Part shown: one piece after another, positions 4,447-13,464 of the stretch
Position numbering within the stretch: the first letter of the stretch is position 1
Layout of the letters: each line of letters begins with the position of its first letter
Position numbers and translations under genes: made by a program
DNA from: Candidatus Gugararchaeum adminiculabundum
Lineage (GTDB): Archaea > Micrarchaeota > Micrarchaeia > Burarchaeales > Gugararchaeaceae
DNA length: 46,154 bases
Direction: 5' to 3'
Assembly: GCA_902384795.1 (NCBI GenBank)
Contig: CABMDC010000002.1
Span: 1 to 46,154, forward strand
Notes under the pieces: generated by a model
Database searches by the model: none
Told to the model about the DNA's origin: nothing
Seen by the model: only the letters and a program-made list of their open reading frames with translations

Positions 4447-4487
4447 CTAACCTAGGATACATCAGGCAATCTACGAGAGTGATTAAT

Positions 4488-5579
4488 ATGGCGAAGATTA
4501 ATTGCGGAGTTATAGGAATAGGCAACTGTTTTGCAGGCCTATACCAAGGCTTGGAATACTACAAGCGCAACCCGGGCAGGAAAATTGTCGGCCTGATGCA
4601 CGAGAACATGGGCGGCTATTCTTTGCAGGATGTGGAGTTCACCTCTGCTTTCGATGTGGGCAAAAACAAGATCGGCAAATCCCTGGACCAGGCAATAATG
4701 CAGCCACCCAACATGGTTGACTGGGTAAAGAACATGCCCCCAAGCAAGGTCGTTGTAAAGGAAAGCCCGGTTCTCGACGGAGTGGGCATCTATGTGCAGA
4801 ACAAAATCGACCCGGTGAAAAACCGCGACATCGCAATTCTTCGCAAGGAAGTTTTGGCAGAGATCGCTTCAACAAAAACTAAAGTTCTCGTAAATTACCT
4901 GCCAGTGGGCTCGCAAAAGGCGGTTGAATGGTGGGCGGAAATCGCGCTCGAATCAGGCTGCGCATTTGTGAACAACATGCCGGTATTCATTGCCAGCAGG
5001 CCCGAATGGGAGGCAAAATTCCGCAAAGCCAATCTTCCCATATTAGGCGATGACACCAAGGGAATGATCGGTGCCACAATTGTTCACAGAACATTGGCAA
5101 GATTGTGCGATGAAAGAGGCGCGGAAATCGACAGCACCTACCAAATTAACGTGGGAGGAAACACAGATTTCCTGAATATGAAAGAGCAGGAAAGGCTGGA
5201 AAGCAAGAAGATTTCCAAAACCGAAAGTGTGCAGTCCCAGCTTTCCAAGCGCCTTCCCGACGATAAAATCTACATCGGCCCAAGCGACTTCATCCCGTTC
5301 CTGAGGAACACCAAGCTCGCGTTCATCCGCGTTGAGGGGAAAATGTGGGCAGACATCCCATTCAATTTCGAGCTGAGGCTTGATGTTGATGACAAGGCTA
5401 ACAGTGCAGGAATTGTGATTGATGCGATCCGCGCAGCGCAAATCGCGCTTGACCGGAAGGTTGGCGGAGCGGTTGAAGGCGCGAGCGCCTATTTGATGAA
5501 GCATCCGCCAAAACAGTTCACAGACCCCGAGGCACGGAAGGCGTTTGATGATTTCATCGCCGGAAAACGGGAGAGGTAA
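4488..5579 (+). CDS. ino1: Myo-inositol-1-phosphate synthase
   Basis: NAD-dependent isomerisation of glucose-6-phosphate to 1L-myo-inositol-1-phosphate, the first step toward inositol lipids. Evidence is the N-terminal dinucleotide-binding GVIGIGNC, the family block around NVGGNTDFLNM with nearby KISKTESVQSQL, and the catalytic-domain region DIPFNFELRLDVDDKANSAG. The 363-aa length fits the archaeal/actinobacterial short form. I chose ATG 4488 because GAGAGTGAT lies 4 nt upstream; a GTG at 4479 would add three residues. The next gene, a CDP-alcohol transferase, starts 15 nt downstream, so the pair supplies and uses inositol phosphate. Confidence 0.95.
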   Translation: MAKINCGVIGIGNCFAGLYQGLEYYKRNPGRKIVGLMHENMGGYSLQDVEFTSAFDVGKNKIGKSLDQAIMQPPNMVDWVKNMPPSKVVVKESPVLDGVGIYVQNKIDPVKNRDIAILRKEVLAEIASTKTKVLVNYLPVGSQKAVEWWAEIALESGCAFVNNMPVFIASRPEWEAKFRKANLPILGDDTKGMIGATIVHRTLARLCDERGAEIDSTYQINVGGNTDFLNMKEQERLESKKISKTESVQSQLSKRLPDDKIYIGPSDFIPFLRNTKLAFIRVEGKMWADIPFNFELRLDVDDKANSAGIVIDAIRAAQIALDRKVGGAVEGASAYLMKHPPKQFTDPEARKAFDDFIAGKRER

Positions 5580-5594
5580 GCAACTGGTGAAAGA

Positions 5595-6200
5595 ATGCTG
5601 AAAAAAACAGTGCTCGCTCCATCTGTCTCTAAATTCGTTGGCAGGATTTTCGAGCCAATCCCGCTTTCACCCAACCAGTGGACAGCACTTTCAGTTCTTT
5701 TCGCTCTTGCCGGCTTCTATTTTCTGGCAGTCCAAAAGCGCTTTCTAATCGCCCTAGTTTTCTTCGCCATTGGAATTTTCCTGGACATAATTGATGGAGC
5801 AATTGCCCGGGCGAAGAATTTAGTTAGCGCAAAAGGAGCATTTTTAGACGGCATGTGCGACAGGCTCACGGAGTTCATGCTTCTCTATGGGCTCATCCTC
5901 TATGGAATTCCGAACTATTACCTTGCAGGCGCCCTTTGGCTGGTGCTGCTCATTTTCTTCGGGAGCATTATGACCGCTTTCACGCGCGCCTATGCAGTTT
6001 ACACCAAAGCGGTTTCATTTGAAAAAGTGAAAGAAATGCCCGGCCTGCTTGAGCGGACTGAAAGAATGCTTCTGGTTTTGCTTGGAATGCTGGGGTTCCT
6101 GTTTCTCTCGCCAATCTATTTGACTTATGCAATAATTTTAGCAACCGCTCTTTCTGTAATAACAGTTCTGCAGCGCTTCATTTTCGCTTTAAACGCATAG
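5595..6200 (+). CDS. CDP-alcohol phosphatidyltransferase, probable archaetidylinositol phosphate synthase
   Basis: A 201-aa integral membrane enzyme with the full CDP-alcohol transferase signature: D64-x2-D67-G68-x2-A71-R72-x8-G81-x3-D85-x3-D89. About six hydrophobic segments are visible. Known archaeal homologues beside ino1 transfer myo-inositol-1-phosphate to CDP-archaeol, and the 15-nt spacing to ino1 supports that substrate; the acceptor itself cannot be read from sequence. GGTGA lies 5-6 nt before the ATG. The reaction would take place at the cytoplasmic membrane and yield archaetidylinositol phosphate. Confidence 0.88.
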   Translation: MLKKTVLAPSVSKFVGRIFEPIPLSPNQWTALSVLFALAGFYFLAVQKRFLIALVFFAIGIFLDIIDGAIARAKNLVSAKGAFLDGMCDRLTEFMLLYGLILYGIPNYYLAGALWLVLLIFFGSIMTAFTRAYAVYTKAVSFEKVKEMPGLLERTERMLLVLLGMLGFLFLSPIYLTYAIILATALSVITVLQRFIFALNA

Positions 6201-6286: not shown

Positions 6287-6323
6287 ATAAGAGCGGTTCT
6301 GTTCGAACAGTGTGCGCTCTTAT
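6287..6323. terminator. Nested palindrome between convergent genes
   Basis: A perfect 9-bp inverted repeat (ATAAGAGCG / CGCTCTTAT) encloses a perfect 12-bp palindrome CTGTTCGAACAG at 6299-6310. It overlaps the TAA stop of the minus-strand vWA gene and lies downstream of the plus-strand lipid operon. Its placement suits a bidirectional transcript end. The inner palindrome could instead be a protein-binding site. Confidence 0.5.
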
Positions 6324-8977
6324 CCGCCTATGCCCGTGCCGTTATTCCCTCTCAGCGCATCCTTTCCTTTTCTGGTCAATTTGTAGAACACAAATTTCTT
6401 GCCAGGCCTCTCAATTTTCTCAATCATGCCTGCTTCCACCATCTTGTCCAGGTGCTCGACCACGGTGCTCTTGCTCTTTCCCAGTTTGGAGCTCAAATCA
6501 GTCGGCGTCCTGTCGCCCTCCAAGAGCTCCTGCAGAATATCCTGCCGGGTATCACTGGAAAGCACCTTGTAGGTTTGGAGCTCGACCATCTGCGGCCTGC
6601 GGAACATTATCTGGTACAGCACAAATCCAGTGCAGAAAACCAGCACAACTCCGATGGGCACCAATTGCCCAAGCCAGCCCAGCGGGTTCTTTTCCGCATT
6701 GCCCGCGCCAGTGACTTTCACTTCCGGCAATCCGCTCGCCCCGGTCGTGATGCTGACATTCACCGGTTCAGTGCTGACTCCCGCGCCGCTCGGGGTAATG
6801 GCGATTTTCTCACTGCCAGTGCACAGCACAATGCTGTCACCTGCTGCCAAATATTTCGCCACATTCGGGTCGTTTGAAAGCTGCCTGTATTCATCGCTTC
6901 CAAAAGTGACAGTTCTGCTCACGCTTCCGGTTCCGCAAGTGATGTCGCTCCAGGTGCCATCCGCGCTGATGAAAGTTTTGTCATCAACAATCTGCATTCC
7001 GCTCTGGGCGTAATTCTGCGCACCTCCCATGGTTCCGGCGCTCTTGTACGCCGCTCCTGCGGTTGAAGTGCCTCCATAGGAAAACTGCGGTGCGGCTTCG
7101 GAAATTCCCAAATCCCTCATAATATTCTGCCCGCTTGCCGTGGTCACCACATAGCTCGTGTAGGGCGTTGGGATCCCGTATTTAGTTGCGAGCTCGGTAA
7201 TCTCGGCTTTCAATTCCGGAGTCTCTCCGTCAATAGTAATCTGGTCCAAAAGATAGCCGACCTTTCTTGTGGCCCAGGCCCTTTCAACGAATGCGTTGTT
7301 CGCCTCGTTTTCAAATTTCACATAGTAAGTTTTGGTTACCTCTTCGCCGCCAACTTTTCCTTTCAGATAAATCGGGGCCATTCCGCTTCCGGTGTATCTT
7401 CCCACAAGCACGACCTGCGAGCCTGCGAAAATGCTCGGTATCTTCTTTGGAAGCACATCGCTAGTTCCCCCGGTAAATTTGAAGGAGTCCATCAGCCCCG
7501 GGGTGTTTATCTCAACTGTCACATCCGTAAGCAACGGGCGCGAAATCCTGTCCACAAAATTCTTCATCACTGTTTCCAGTTGGTCATCGCTCCTAATGTA
7601 AGTCGGAATCCCGTCCCCATAGGCATTCGCCAGTTTGTCCAGCAATTCAAAATCAATCTGCTCCCCTACTCCGAACGGGAACAGCTTTGCATCACTATTA
7701 TTCATGGCAGCTATAATCATCTCATTCGAGTGCCCCGTGGTATCCTGGCCATCGGTAAGCAGCACAATCACGTGCAATCTCCCGTCATTCTCCTTTGCGA
7801 GCATTTCATCCGCAGTTCCCAAGGCCCCGTAAATATTGGTGCTTCCTCCAGCCTCCAGGCTGGAAACATAGGCGCTCGCGGCATCCTTTCCGCTCGCATC
7901 CTGCATTTCGCTATTATAATAGTCAACTTCATTGTTGAATGTCACAATCCCGAACTTGTCCCCGTCATTCAATCTCGCAAGCGAATACTTGAGCGCGCTC
8001 TTTGCCTGTTCGATTTTGGTTCCGCTCATGCTTCCCGACGTGTCAATCACGAACACCACGTCCTTGGGAACAATCGCGGCATCCGTTACCGTGGGATAAA
8101 GGAACAGCATGAAATATCCTCCATCGCTTCCTGCCTTCTTGTTCGAAATCAGCTTCACATCATAGTCCAGCCCGGTCACTCCATAGTAAAGCACAAAATC
8201 GCGGTCAGGAATCTCCTTTGAATAATAGGTGACCTGGGCCTGGTTTTTCTGCCCATTCAGGTCCCTGTCAATAGTCACATTGTAAGTGGGGGAATAGATG
8301 AACCCTATATCCCCGTTTGTGTTAATGATGCTGATTCTCAAATCAACCGGGTCAATGGGTTTCGTAGTATACCTTTCGGTTGAGAGAGGGTAGAACAATT
8401 CGTTCAACCCATAGCTGCTCTTGATTTCCTGCTCATAGGTCACTCTTACGCGCACTGTTTCTCCCTTTGGAATAGAAACGCTTGCAGCAAAAGTATCTTT
8501 TCCAACATAGGAAAGAAGGCTCGCTTCCTTTCTTGCAATCGCATTTTCCTGGTAGATTTTCTTTGCTGTTTCCGCATCCAGCATGTTTCCCTCAAGCACT
8601 TTTCCTCCGACTACGAGTGAAAAATCCTTCACTCCGCCTTCTGGCACAGGGAAAACATAGGTTCCTTCAATGTCGCGGCAATAGTAATTGGGCGGCGGCC
8701 TGGGCATTGGGCGAATATCCGATTTCGCCTCATCATAAACAATCACTGTTCCGCCATCATCAACATAATCACAGTCATTTTTGAATTCCTGGTCAACGTT
8801 CACAACCGCGTGCTCACCATTGATTGTAATATTCACATGGTGGTTCAGCACCAATGGATAGGGCTGGTCCGGAACTATTGGAATAATCATCCCATCTCCA
8901 AAAACAAACGGGGCGCAGGCTACTGCCAGCACAAAAAGAATTTCCAGGGCCAGAATGGCGCGTTGCGAGTTTTTCAT
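6320..8977 (-). CDS. VIT and vWA domain surface protein with transmembrane segment and cytoplasmic winged helix
   Basis: An 885-aa membrane protein. Residues 1-27 form a hydrophobic signal segment. A VIT-type domain follows (about 35-185; VFPVPEGGVKDFSLVVGG and DAETAKKIYQENAIARKEAS are characteristic). Next is a von Willebrand A domain (about 303-480) with an intact metal site D312-T-S-G-S316. A further beta-rich region precedes one transmembrane helix (about 772-792). The last 90 residues are a winged helix (VLSSDTRQDILQELLEGDR through the wing KFVFYKLTRKGKDAL), like ArsR/MarR-type regulators. The layout implies an outside adhesion or metal-dependent binding region joined to an inside DNA-binding domain. 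TATATAAA at 9000-9007 is centred about 26 nt before the ATG, so it is probably leaderless. The function is inferred from architecture only. Confidence 0.9.
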   Translation of the reverse strand: MKNSQRAILALEILFVLAVACAPFVFGDGMIIPIVPDQPYPLVLNHHVNITINGEHAVVNVDQEFKNDCDYVDDGGTVIVYDEAKSDIRPMPRPPPNYYCRDIEGTYVFPVPEGGVKDFSLVVGGKVLEGNMLDAETAKKIYQENAIARKEASLLSYVGKDTFAASVSIPKGETVRVRVTYEQEIKSSYGLNELFYPLSTERYTTKPIDPVDLRISIINTNGDIGFIYSPTYNVTIDRDLNGQKNQAQVTYYSKEIPDRDFVLYYGVTGLDYDVKLISNKKAGSDGGYFMLFLYPTVTDAAIVPKDVVFVIDTSGSMSGTKIEQAKSALKYSLARLNDGDKFGIVTFNNEVDYYNSEMQDASGKDAASAYVSSLEAGGSTNIYGALGTADEMLAKENDGRLHVIVLLTDGQDTTGHSNEMIIAAMNNSDAKLFPFGVGEQIDFELLDKLANAYGDGIPTYIRSDDQLETVMKNFVDRISRPLLTDVTVEINTPGLMDSFKFTGGTSDVLPKKIPSIFAGSQVVLVGRYTGSGMAPIYLKGKVGGEEVTKTYYVKFENEANNAFVERAWATRKVGYLLDQITIDGETPELKAEITELATKYGIPTPYTSYVVTTASGQNIMRDLGISEAAPQFSYGGTSTAGAAYKSAGTMGGAQNYAQSGMQIVDDKTFISADGTWSDITCGTGSVSRTVTFGSDEYRQLSNDPNVAKYLAAGDSIVLCTGSEKIAITPSGAGVSTEPVNVSITTGASGLPEVKVTGAGNAEKNPLGWLGQLVPIGVVLVFCTGFVLYQIMFRRPQMVELQTYKVLSSDTRQDILQELLEGDRTPTDLSSKLGKSKSTVVEHLDKMVEAGMIEKIERPGKKFVFYKLTRKGKDALRGNNGTGIGG

Positions 8978-8998
8978 GCTACTATTTGACTTTTGAGG

Positions 8999-9087
8999 CT
9001 ATATAAAGCGCTTTCTTTTTGTTCGGTGAGAGCCGAACGAACCGCTTTTCCGCCGGAGTGCGGGCAAAAACAAATGCTTTTATAATA
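8999..9087. promoter_or_regulatory. Divergent promoter region with dyad operator candidate
   Basis: TATATAAA at 9000-9007 serves the minus-strand vWA gene at the leaderless distance. TTTATAATAT at 9078-9087 serves the plus-strand gene and predicts a start of transcription about 8 nt before ATG 9117. Between them lies a perfect dyad, GTTCGG at 9021-9026 and CCGAAC at 9033-9038 with a 6-nt spacer, a plausible operator. Confidence 0.5.
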
Positions 9088-9116
9088 TGTCGCAGATAAT
9101 ATATAACAGTGTTAAA

Positions 9117-11039
9117 ATGGCAGATGTCGACAACAAGCACACCCTCCACATATTCGATTTCAGGTATTCCTTTCTATTCCAGCAAAAATACCTCCATGCC
9201 TGGGCAGAAGCAAAGGGCATCAAACAGCATTCGGTAAACCTCGCGCTGGACGAGTTTGAGGAGGCTTCCAAGGATAAAATCGACTATTTTATCGCTGACC
9301 TGGCCGGGAATCCAAAGATAGGCGGTTTTTACTGCGAGAGCCAGCTAAATTCTCCCTGCAAAGGGGAACCAGCGGCAGAATCGAACCCGCAGTTTGTTTT
9401 CAGGAACAAGGAGCAGGAAAGGAGGATTTTCCTTCCGAAGTTTGCAACCCTAATCTGCGAGCTTTCATCCGGCCTGGGCAATGCCATCGCGCAAAAAGAA
9501 GGGAGAGATGACGGAAAAGAGCTTGGCGACGAGCTCGCGTGCATTGCGAGCATGTTCCTGCGCAAGAATTCCACTGTCAAGCCTCACTACATCAAGGAGC
9601 TGTTCGCAAACCGAAACCATCTTCCAGAGCTCATCCGCATCTACGAGCGCAATCCCCTGGTCCGCCCCATTGCCTGGAAATTCCGCGTCAAGCCCGGAGT
9701 CGCGTTTCTGGTGGTTGACGCCCTAAGAAAAAGAACTGACAACGGGCACGGGTGCGATGTCTGCGACTATTACCGCGTGGCAAAGCAGATTTCCAACAAT
9801 TGGAGAAGACCTTCCCTGCACATTCTCACCGATACGGGCCTAATCCACCGCCTGCACACCTCCAGTTTCACCAATGAATTCACGCTCGTCTATATCACAA
9901 CCGAACCCCGGAATCGGCCTTCTTTTGATTTCCTGTGCAGGCTCAGGGAGCACAGGATTGAAATTTCAAAAGACCGCGTTAAGGATTATGCCGAGATAGA
10001 AGAATTCGCAAACAACCTAAAGCGCCGCCAGCCGGCAGTTTCAGACAAGGAGTTCGACTCGCTTCTCCGGGCAAGCCAGCGCAAAGTAGATACCTTGGTT
10101 GGCGCATGCAATTTCATTTCCGCAGGCCTTACCGTTTATTCCGTTCTTCAAATCATCCACAAGGCAGAATTCAGCGAAGTCGAGTCTTTCATCCAATTCT
10201 CCAGCTCGCCAGCGCACCTGATCGAATTCTCAAGGCTCCTGCACCGGGGAACCGGGAAGGATTTCCTGCTCGAGATCCTCAACCGCGGCTATGTTCTTGG
10301 TGACCGAGAATTCGATTTCTGCCTGCGGCTTCAATCAAGAAAATCATTCCGGGACGTCAGCGCCATCTCCATACTGGAGCTTTTTGAAAAGGAGAACGGG
10401 GATATGGAAAGGGCGGCAATGCGGCTGATCGGGAAACTCCCCGGCGCCACAGAGCTGACAGTGCAGGAGGTATGCGCCCAAACCTCCTACGCAAAGCACG
10501 GCCTGAATGACAGGGAGCAGGAAATAATAGGCAAAATAGCCTCCGCGCTTTCAATTCCAAAGCCGCGCCGGATCGTTAATGCATTCTATAATCACGCGAA
10601 CGCGAAGCCTTCGGAGAACGGGGATGAGCGGATAATCTCCCATGCAAGGCAGAAATATCCGGAAATTTTTGAGAAAATTTGCGCAAAATTGAAGCGGCCA
10701 GAGGAGCCGGAACTCCCGCCCATGGAAGAATTAATGCAGCAAATCCATGCCGCGGCAAAAGAGCAGGAAGCCCGCCTTCCCCCTGCCCAGACGGAAAAGC
10801 TGATTTCCATGGCAGACCTTCCAAAGAATGCAAGGGTCGGGCAATTGGACCTGGTTCTCAGATACCTGGGCTTTGAGCCAAGGGGAACCCGCGGTTCCCA
10901 TACATACTATGTCCCGGTCAATGTGGGGGGCGGGAAAGGGCGCGGCTTCCCCGTAATCCTTGTAGAAAGAAACGGAGTTTTCATGCCCGCAGGAGGCTTT
11001 GCCGAAAGCCTCAGGTTTTATGGAATAACCTCGGCCTAA
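9117..11039 (+). CDS. Uncharacterised protein with C-terminal HicA-like domain
   Basis: A 640-aa soluble protein. The family of residues 1 to about 570 is not recognised: a mixed N-terminal region, a possible winged-helix stretch around CDYYRVAKQISNNWRRPSLH, a mostly helical middle, then a Pro/Glu-rich linker. The final 67 residues (about 574-640) match the HicA mRNA-interferase fold: LVLRYLGFEPRGTRGSHTYY carries the GSH signature with His595, followed by FPVILVERNG and the terminal ESLRFYGIT. I chose ATG 9117 rather than 9087 because the TATA-like box at 9078-9087 overlaps the earlier start. No HicB-like partner follows. The next gene carries a degenerate copy of the same C-terminal domain. 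RNA binding or cleavage is inference. Confidence 0.75.
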   Translation: MADVDNKHTLHIFDFRYSFLFQQKYLHAWAEAKGIKQHSVNLALDEFEEASKDKIDYFIADLAGNPKIGGFYCESQLNSPCKGEPAAESNPQFVFRNKEQERRIFLPKFATLICELSSGLGNAIAQKEGRDDGKELGDELACIASMFLRKNSTVKPHYIKELFANRNHLPELIRIYERNPLVRPIAWKFRVKPGVAFLVVDALRKRTDNGHGCDVCDYYRVAKQISNNWRRPSLHILTDTGLIHRLHTSSFTNEFTLVYITTEPRNRPSFDFLCRLREHRIEISKDRVKDYAEIEEFANNLKRRQPAVSDKEFDSLLRASQRKVDTLVGACNFISAGLTVYSVLQIIHKAEFSEVESFIQFSSSPAHLIEFSRLLHRGTGKDFLLEILNRGYVLGDREFDFCLRLQSRKSFRDVSAISILELFEKENGDMERAAMRLIGKLPGATELTVQEVCAQTSYAKHGLNDREQEIIGKIASALSIPKPRRIVNAFYNHANAKPSENGDERIISHARQKYPEIFEKICAKLKRPEEPELPPMEELMQQIHAAAKEQEARLPPAQTEKLISMADLPKNARVGQLDLVLRYLGFEPRGTRGSHTYYVPVNVGGGKGRGFPVILVERNGVFMPAGGFAESLRFYGITSA

Positions 11040-11880: not shown

Positions 11881-13464
11881 GTGTACAAACTAGATGAAAC
11901 CAGGTTCACTCCGCGCGCCTACCAGCTGGCAATAGCTGAAAGCGCAATTAGGGAAAGCACGCTCGTAGTCCTGCCAACCGGGATGGGAAAAACCCTTATT
12001 GCAATGCTGGTGATGCAGCATTTTCTCGCAACCGCAAACAACAAAGGCAAAGTCCTTTTTCTCGCGCCCACCAAGCCATTGTGCGAACAGCATTACAAAA
12101 CAATCAAGGAGTCCATGAACATTCCTGATGCAGACGAGAATGGAATTGCCGGCATCGCCCTGATTTCCGGAGCAGTTTCCCCGCCCAAGCGCAAGGAGCT
12201 CTACAACTCGCGCATTGTTGTCGCCACCCCACAAACCATCAAAAATGATTTTGAAAATTTACGCGTAGCATCAGGATTTGACTATTCCCTGTGCGTGATC
12301 GATGAGGCGCACCGGGCGGTTGGCAACTATGCTTATACATTTGTGGCAAAAATGTGCGGAGATAAAGGAGTGCAAATTCTTGCGCTCACCGCATCGCCCG
12401 GGGGAAACAGGCAGAAAATAGAGGAGACTCTTGAAGCATTGTTCATCAAGCGCGTTGAGGCGCGCTCTGAAACTGATGCAGACGTGCAGCAGTACATGCA
12501 GCAGGTTGACATGAAATGGATCGAAGTCGAATTGTCCGACCAATTGAAAAGATGCAAGCTCACGCTGGAACAAATGCTCAACGAACATCTGGAAGTGCTT
12601 GCCAAGTTCGGCTTTCCCCTCGGAAAGCGCCCCTCGAAAATGCGGCTGTTTGATTTGCGCGACAAAATCCTGCAAGCGGAAAACAAGAGCACGCGCATGC
12701 TCGCGCTTTCCCAGTATTCAACAATTTTTAATTTGCTCCACTCGCTGGAGTTGCTTGAAACCCAGGGAGTCAGCACTTTTCTCAACTATTTAGAACGCGC
12801 GCGGCAAAAGCAGAGTGAAAAAGAAAAACCCACAAAAGGAGTCGAGCGTTTCCTCAACGACCTGCGCATGAAAAAATTGGAAGAGGAACTAAAGGGCGCG
12901 GTTGAGCACCCGAAACTTCTCAAGCTCGTGGAACTGGTGCGCGAGCGCCCAGGAAAAAAGCTCATAGTTTTCGTGCAATACCGCGACCAGATTGCAAAAA
13001 TAGTAGAAACGCTCAAGCAAAACGGTTTCCGCGCAGAAAGGTTCGTTGGCAAAAAAGACGGGGTCACGCAAAAGGAGCAGCAGGCCACTGTGCAATTATT
13101 TAGGGAAGGAGGATTCGACATTCTGGTTGCCAGCTCCATAGGTGAAGAGGGGCTTGACATCCCCTCGGTCGATTCGGTAATATTTTTCGAGCCTGTTCCC
13201 AGCGAGATAAGGTCAATTCAGCGGAGGGGAAGAGCGGGCAGGGCAAAGAGCGGCGAAGTCGTCATCCTAATCACCAAAGGCACGCGCGACGAGGCCTACT
13301 ACTGGGCATCGCGCACCCGGGAAAAGCGCATGCGCAAAATAGTCGGAAACATGCAGACAGGCGCTTCCGGCACGGGCAGCACAGCTGGCGCGAAGCAATT
13401 AAAAGCAAGGTCAAGGGAAAAGAGTTTAAGGCAGGCAGACCTGAAGGAATTCTCAGGAGATTAA
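11881..13464 (+). CDS. hef: Hef-like superfamily 2 helicase lacking the nuclease domain
   Basis: A 527-aa DNA helicase of the archaeal Hef / FANCM type, which act at stalled replication forks. Visible motifs are Walker A PTGMGKT (residues 32-38), ATPQTIKNDF, DEAH at 141-144, ALTASPGG, the long helical insert typical of Hef between the two RecA domains, and QRRGRAGR (motif VI) near residue 445. Full-length Hef also carries an XPF-type nuclease and a helix-hairpin-helix region (about 750 aa in total), both absent here. The last ten residues, QADLKEFSGD, resemble a PCNA-interaction motif (Q518, L521, F524). The start is GTG with a TATA-like box at leaderless distance. The ATPase gene begins 4 nt downstream. 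Confidence 0.9.
   Translation: MYKLDETRFTPRAYQLAIAESAIRESTLVVLPTGMGKTLIAMLVMQHFLATANNKGKVLFLAPTKPLCEQHYKTIKESMNIPDADENGIAGIALISGAVSPPKRKELYNSRIVVATPQTIKNDFENLRVASGFDYSLCVIDEAHRAVGNYAYTFVAKMCGDKGVQILALTASPGGNRQKIEETLEALFIKRVEARSETDADVQQYMQQVDMKWIEVELSDQLKRCKLTLEQMLNEHLEVLAKFGFPLGKRPSKMRLFDLRDKILQAENKSTRMLALSQYSTIFNLLHSLELLETQGVSTFLNYLERARQKQSEKEKPTKGVERFLNDLRMKKLEEELKGAVEHPKLLKLVELVRERPGKKLIVFVQYRDQIAKIVETLKQNGFRAERFVGKKDGVTQKEQQATVQLFREGGFDILVASSIGEEGLDIPSVDSVIFFEPVPSEIRSIQRRGRAGRAKSGEVVILITKGTRDEAYYWASRTREKRMRKIVGNMQTGASGTGSTAGAKQLKARSREKSLRQADLKEFSGD

Follow-up and report, generated by a model that had tools for sequence, protein, structure and literature searches.

A probable membrane-bound VIT-vWA regulator and its conserved candidate operator in Micrarchaeota

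The combination of an extracellular VIT-vWA receptor, a single membrane-crossing helix and a cytoplasmic winged helix (wHTH) probably gives Candidatus Gugararchaeum adminiculabundum a membrane-bound one-component regulator that controls its own gene together with a set of exported and surface proteins. We consider this the best explanation of what was computed for the window (the whole 46,154-nucleotide stretch of DNA analysed here) and for related genomes, namely the architecture and topology of the protein, a conserved operator with its spacing, the locus, the variety of ectodomains and the association with exported genes. To our knowledge, environmental sensing and surface control in small DPANN archaea are almost unknown. 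In this case the sequence would let one read the receptor and its DNA-binding domain as well as the operator and the target genes, and one protein may be enough for a small archaeon that has been little studied to adjust its surface. The gene and the parts of its product are the following.

6320-8977, minus strand: gene of the VIT-vWA-TM-wHTH protein, 885 aa, ATG start (open reading frame with seven full-length orthologues)
8897-8977, minus strand: signal segment, residues 1-27 (within hydrophobic segment 4-36)
8435-8890, minus strand: VIT domain, residues ~30-181 (PF08487 on 101-181; ITIH1-like VIT-vWA model)
7565-8062, minus strand: vWA domain with complete MIDAS (PF00092; D312, S314, S316, T380, D409)
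6767-7120, minus strand: membrane-proximal extracellular segment, residues ~620-737, common to bacterial VIT-vWA proteins
6599-6673, minus strand: single transmembrane (TM) helix, residues ~769-793 (hydrophobicity and structure models)
6350-6586, minus strand: ArsR-fold winged helix, residues ~798-876, predicted cytoplasmic (PF01022; fold match to CadC/CzrA)

The original prediction, made from the letters of the DNA, had read this same order from signal segment to winged helix, and Pfam, hydrophobicity and fold models agree with it. The Pfam search placed VIT (PF08487, E 7.9e-19, residues 101-181), VWA (PF00092, E 4.2e-22, residues 306-471) and HTH_5/ArsR (PF01022, E 1.9e-11, residues 809-854) above their curated cut-offs. 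The vWA metal site described as intact is indeed so, its five MIDAS residues being invariant in the orthologue alignments, as are C681 and C719 of the membrane-proximal segment; much of the VIT-vWA head is strongly conserved across all orthologues. The best PDB match of the full-length AF2 model, which is weak (mean pLDDT 55.9) and served for domain-level fold matches only, is inter-alpha-inhibitor heavy chain 1 (ITIH1), a VIT-vWA protein. Modelling of the C-terminal 126 residues gave a TM helix that continues into a wHTH (pLDDT ~90 in the latter) that matches the ArsR-family structures CadC, CzrA and SmtB at Z 12-14, with Z 14 for CadC and CzrA; far from failing to match any winged-helix family, the C-terminus is thus a winged helix by profile and by fold. 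Metal sensing by the wHTH was rejected because a sequence scan of residues 798-885 found no Cys there.

In the hydrophobicity scan the protein has two hydrophobic segments only, residues 4-36 (signal) and 765-793 (TM), and the FRR directly after the latter puts the C-terminus inside by the positive-inside rule. The wHTH is accordingly predicted to be cytoplasmic and the VIT-vWA part extracellular, so that the proposed placement of the two across the membrane, and not on one side of it, holds. A signal from outside might lead to cleavage near the membrane and free the wHTH to act in the cytoplasm; the stretch that joins the ectodomain to the membrane shows poor conservation in the orthologue alignment, in favour of such a release, and proteolysis is cited in PMC10269533 as controlling bacterial membrane regulators such as TcpP. 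However, no more than about five residues separate the membrane helix from the wHTH, as would suit rigid coupling, and we regard regulated release as rather unlikely.

Related genomes, where a search for the same architecture had been suggested, do carry it. Full-length orthologues of about 50% identity occur in seven genomes beside the window's, all of one order, among 245 genomes of the phylum searched. A contig scan with the single protein as query found no relative and was repeated with an alignment. The carriers, identified as Micrarchaeota, include Ca. Fermentimicrarchaeum limneticum, where the gene lies on a chromosome, and several relatives bear lake-sediment or groundwater isolate names. 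The joining of VIT-vWA and wHTH is evidently no chance fusion, because full-length relatives exist in these seven other genomes. After these, the nearest relatives come from bacteria (Chloroflexi, Aminicenantes and others), with about 30-37% identity; no wHTH was found in those inspected, which stop near residue 737 or end with a TM tail. The TM-wHTH part is far wider, with matches in 45 of 301 genomes of the class (E 1e-20), usually as one copy per genome. The window's genome has two, the second (L039:2344-3645, contig 12) with an unrelated ectodomain.

The upstream region 8978-9116 had been put forward as the target of the winged helix, and this is now supported by a conserved palindrome within it to which the wHTH may bind.

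9021-9038, minus strand: candidate operator GTTCGG-CTCTCA-CCGAAC in the gene's own promoter (conserved upstream motif)
9000-9007, minus strand: TATA box TTTATATA, 13 nt after the operator and 30 nt before the ATG (promoter inspection)

The palindrome GTTCGG-N6-CCGAAC, just ahead of a TATA box, is common to the upstream regions of the orthologues; in the window the ATG lies 43 nt downstream of it. All 13 TM-wHTH promoters of the order reach an operator score of at least 10 of 12, a score that 0-1.2% of dinucleotide shuffles reach per gene, and the distance from operator to TATA box is 13-15 nt in 12 of 12 measured. Among 179 upstream regions of open reading frames at these loci, the matches of at least 10 outside the family are one divergent neighbour, which shares its intergenic region with the operator, and three genes from loci that were themselves fetched by the motif. 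The likely TATA box of the divergent neighbour (9087-11039) is some 38 nt from the operator, which does not fit the spacing of 13-15 nt.

Several families have the half-site CCGAAC in front of TM-wHTH genes whose ectodomains are unrelated; the full palindrome stands ahead of genes with different heads in genomes G038, G043, G130 and G233, and other families have a direct repeat, CCGAACAAAAACCGAAC, with an 11-bp period at the same position. The operator goes with the wHTH and not with the receptor head, because it precedes TM-wHTH genes whatever their ectodomain. Recognition helix and operator vary together in two clear cases, the L039 paralogue of the window's genome (KDKST, with GTTGGG-N6-CCCAAC) and genome G060 (KNAST, with ATTCGG-N6-CCGAAT); other pairs do not follow. 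Membrane proteins of other designs were also met. In three loci of other families (L029, L031, L254) the order is reversed, an N-terminal wHTH being followed by a TM helix, a small ectodomain and another TM helix, and a similar repeat stands ahead of the TATA box in CCAAAC or CCCAAC variants. The N-terminal wHTH membrane proteins of family f5 (L256 and L257, in genomes G245 and G202) have another palindrome upstream of the start, approximately TTCGG-N5-CCGAA.

The TM-wHTH gene also keeps its place. It lies between a pair of neighbours, the inositol-1-phosphate synthase and CDP-alcohol phosphatidyltransferase genes, and a DEAD helicase gene, or adjoins one of them, and this locus is common to the VIT-vWA carriers and to carriers of other heads in other families.

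4479-5579, plus strand: inositol-1-phosphate synthase gene, conserved neighbour (PF01658; synteny)
5595-6200, plus strand: CDP-alcohol phosphatidyltransferase gene, conserved neighbour (PF01066; synteny)
11881-13464, plus strand: DEAD/DEAH helicase gene, conserved neighbour on the other side (PF00270/PF00271; synteny)

Within the stretches read, these neighbours were not found near two VIT-vWA carriers (L036, L037) or the L039 paralogue. The TM-wHTH ectodomains fall into 16 clusters with no mutual similarity detectable by BLAST, VIT-vWA being one, and in some members they are very short (76-92 residues). Orthology rests on synteny, because the TM-wHTH tree (119-column alignment) is poorly resolved and does not show the order as one clade, although such a clade is not rejected either (p-AU 0.216). 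The simplest reading would be that a single ancestral gene had its receptor part exchanged, for which the TM-wHTH tree is too short to serve as proof. In a fuller form, to which we give about even chances, an ancestral Micrarchaeota locus would be a receptor platform that keeps the TM-wHTH, the operator and core exported targets while its head is repeatedly replaced; in the window's order the head is often a VIT-vWA protein with bacterial nearest relatives. If true, a cell-surface regulon of DPANN archaea, protease inhibitors (serpin, alpha-2-macroglobulin-like) included, could be read directly, and with heads exchanged while the output module stays fixed, what each lineage senses could be predicted.

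Other features of the region can be recorded. The divergent neighbour (9087-11039, plus strand) encodes 650 aa with a weak TerB match (E 6.5e-4, below cut-off), and its C-terminus GSHTYYVP recalls HicA-like toxins. At about 6288-6321, between convergent genes and at the 3' end of the VIT-vWA gene, an inverted repeat AAGAGCG...CGCTCTT around CTGTTCGAACAG is perhaps a terminator.

Beyond the regulator's own promoter, the operator also stands ahead of genes for exported proteins. Exact or one-mismatch promoter sites in the window's genome precede the genes for an MG2 protein (contig 11), for a lipoprotein (contig 12) and for other membrane or signal-peptide proteins; the first, a secreted MG2-domain, alpha-2-macroglobulin-like protein (L065:2309-3904), stands behind an exact operator copy, its gene being cut by the contig end. 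Across four genomes of the order, all 11 promoter-placed sites other than those of the regulators themselves precede exported-protein genes, against a background of 27% (138 genes), export being called with a hydrophobicity rule and in part by reading. DUF4139 proteins (three genomes), serpin lipoproteins and Beta_propel lipoproteins recur behind the site. Serpin promoters have it in four of the four genomes where the gene was found, all of one genus and with half-site variants CCTAAC and CCAAAC allowed. A gene-first test found CCGAAC or CCGAAT in Beta_propel promoters of 10 of 12 genomes that encode the regulator and 0 of 6 that do not (Fisher p 0.0015, uncorrected for phylogeny in related genomes whose counts are not independent). 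One of the six belongs to a genus where relatives have both regulator and site.

The regulon signal is one of position and gene class. Raw counts of half-site plus TATA in 40 genomes were not above the reversed-pattern control; pattern counts alone were rejected as regulon evidence for this reason, and promoter position and gene-first tests were used instead. One site counted as promoter-placed (L094, phosphomutase-like) lies within an open reading frame by inspection and was treated as false. The regulon of the Fermentimicrarchaeum genus may comprise little beyond the regulator itself and serpin, because sites with up to two mismatches do not exceed the control there. The serpin and macroglobulin-like genes behind the site weakly suggest a response to proteases or surface damage.

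The same export bias would be expected if the site were that of a different, soluble regulator acting globally on exported proteins, the TM-wHTH genes bearing it because their products, too, are exported. Nearly all promoter-placed sites do precede exported genes, but several observations make this explanation unlikely. The sole site within one mismatch of the consensus in the Ca. Fermentimicrarchaeum genome (G054) is its own TM-wHTH promoter. The site is found in every one of the order's 13 TM-wHTH promoters and is absent from the Beta_propel promoters of the six regulator-less genomes, one of them from a genus that otherwise has both, and variant operators accompany variant wHTHs. It is still less probable that the wHTH holds exported-protein loci at the membrane in a coupling of transcription to secretion, with no sensing and with VIT-vWA as an adhesin or surface anchor: the exported genes behind sites and the very short ectodomains of some members would suit such tethering, but in every orthologue the MIDAS, like much of the head, is strongly conserved, and the fixed TATA spacing points to the basal promoter machinery.

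For the membrane-bound regulator we infer DNA binding, autoregulation, the sign of regulation and the signal, as follows. With VIT-vWA outside and a single helix crossing the membrane, the ArsR-fold winged helix in the cytoplasm, probably dimeric, would bind GTTCGG-N6-CCGAAC directly upstream of BRE/TATA at its own gene and at genes of exported lipoproteins and surface proteins. A signal at the ectodomain, whether a bound ligand or metal, contact or damage, would be relayed across the membrane and change promoter use. Activation is the most likely outcome, because the site is upstream of BRE/TATA and not on it, and, given the conserved MIDAS, the signal of the VIT-vWA head could plausibly be ligand or metal binding. 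An absence of two-component systems was rejected as an argument, since receiver domains were seen in 11 of 16 genomes from this order. Genome G000 (contig 7, 115457-116656) encodes three consecutive small receiver-domain proteins, which suggest a CheY-like cluster. The operator could also serve as a route to surface regulons in uncultured genomes.

Our literature search on VIT/vWA with HTH in archaea, Micrarchaeota transcription factors and COG2512 returned nothing on this architecture, nor any description of the VIT-vWA head, the operator, a fixed locus with exchanged heads or the exported regulon; the search was limited and is no proof of novelty.

Several known systems share parts of this design. 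Transmembrane transcription regulators (TTRs), such as ToxR and TcpP, are most commonly single-pass (Demey et al. 2023; PMC10269533), and the main text of that survey makes no mention of vWA, DPANN or Micrarchaeota. Like them, the present protein has a predicted DNA-binding domain and at least one TM region in one chain, here with an N-terminal VIT-vWA receptor and a C-terminal wHTH; it is by prediction of the TTR kind, and the conserved operator is an indirect sign that it may regulate transcription from the membrane. ArnR and ArnR1 of Sulfolobus acidocaldarius, also archaeal membrane-bound one-component regulators with inverted-repeat boxes in a target promoter, demonstrate that such a protein can control cell-surface structures (PMC6396743). 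They have an N-terminal HTH, a HAMP domain, two C-terminal TM helices and no VIT-vWA, whereas the protein described here has the opposite order and one TM helix, which places it outside the ArnR family; no head swapping at one locus is reported for them (PMC6396743). The head, VIT plus vWA with MIDAS, resembles inter-alpha-trypsin inhibitor heavy chains and bacterial VIT-vWA proteins, although the inspected bacterial relatives lack the wHTH, and the match to TIGR03788 (marine proteobacterial sortase target protein; E 2e-75, 254.4 bits) is below the equivalog cut-off of 551.65. The wHTH shares the fold of ArsR/SmtB but, unlike those metalloregulators, is membrane-anchored and devoid of Cys, and it scores 38.1 bits against the cut-off of 55 for NF033788 (ArsR). 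As a working analogue of the promoter, CopR of Pyrococcus furiosus has a semi-palindrome directly upstream of BRE at up-regulated promoters and represses its own gene too (PMC7830388); the element described here is likewise palindromic and directly upstream of BRE/TATA.
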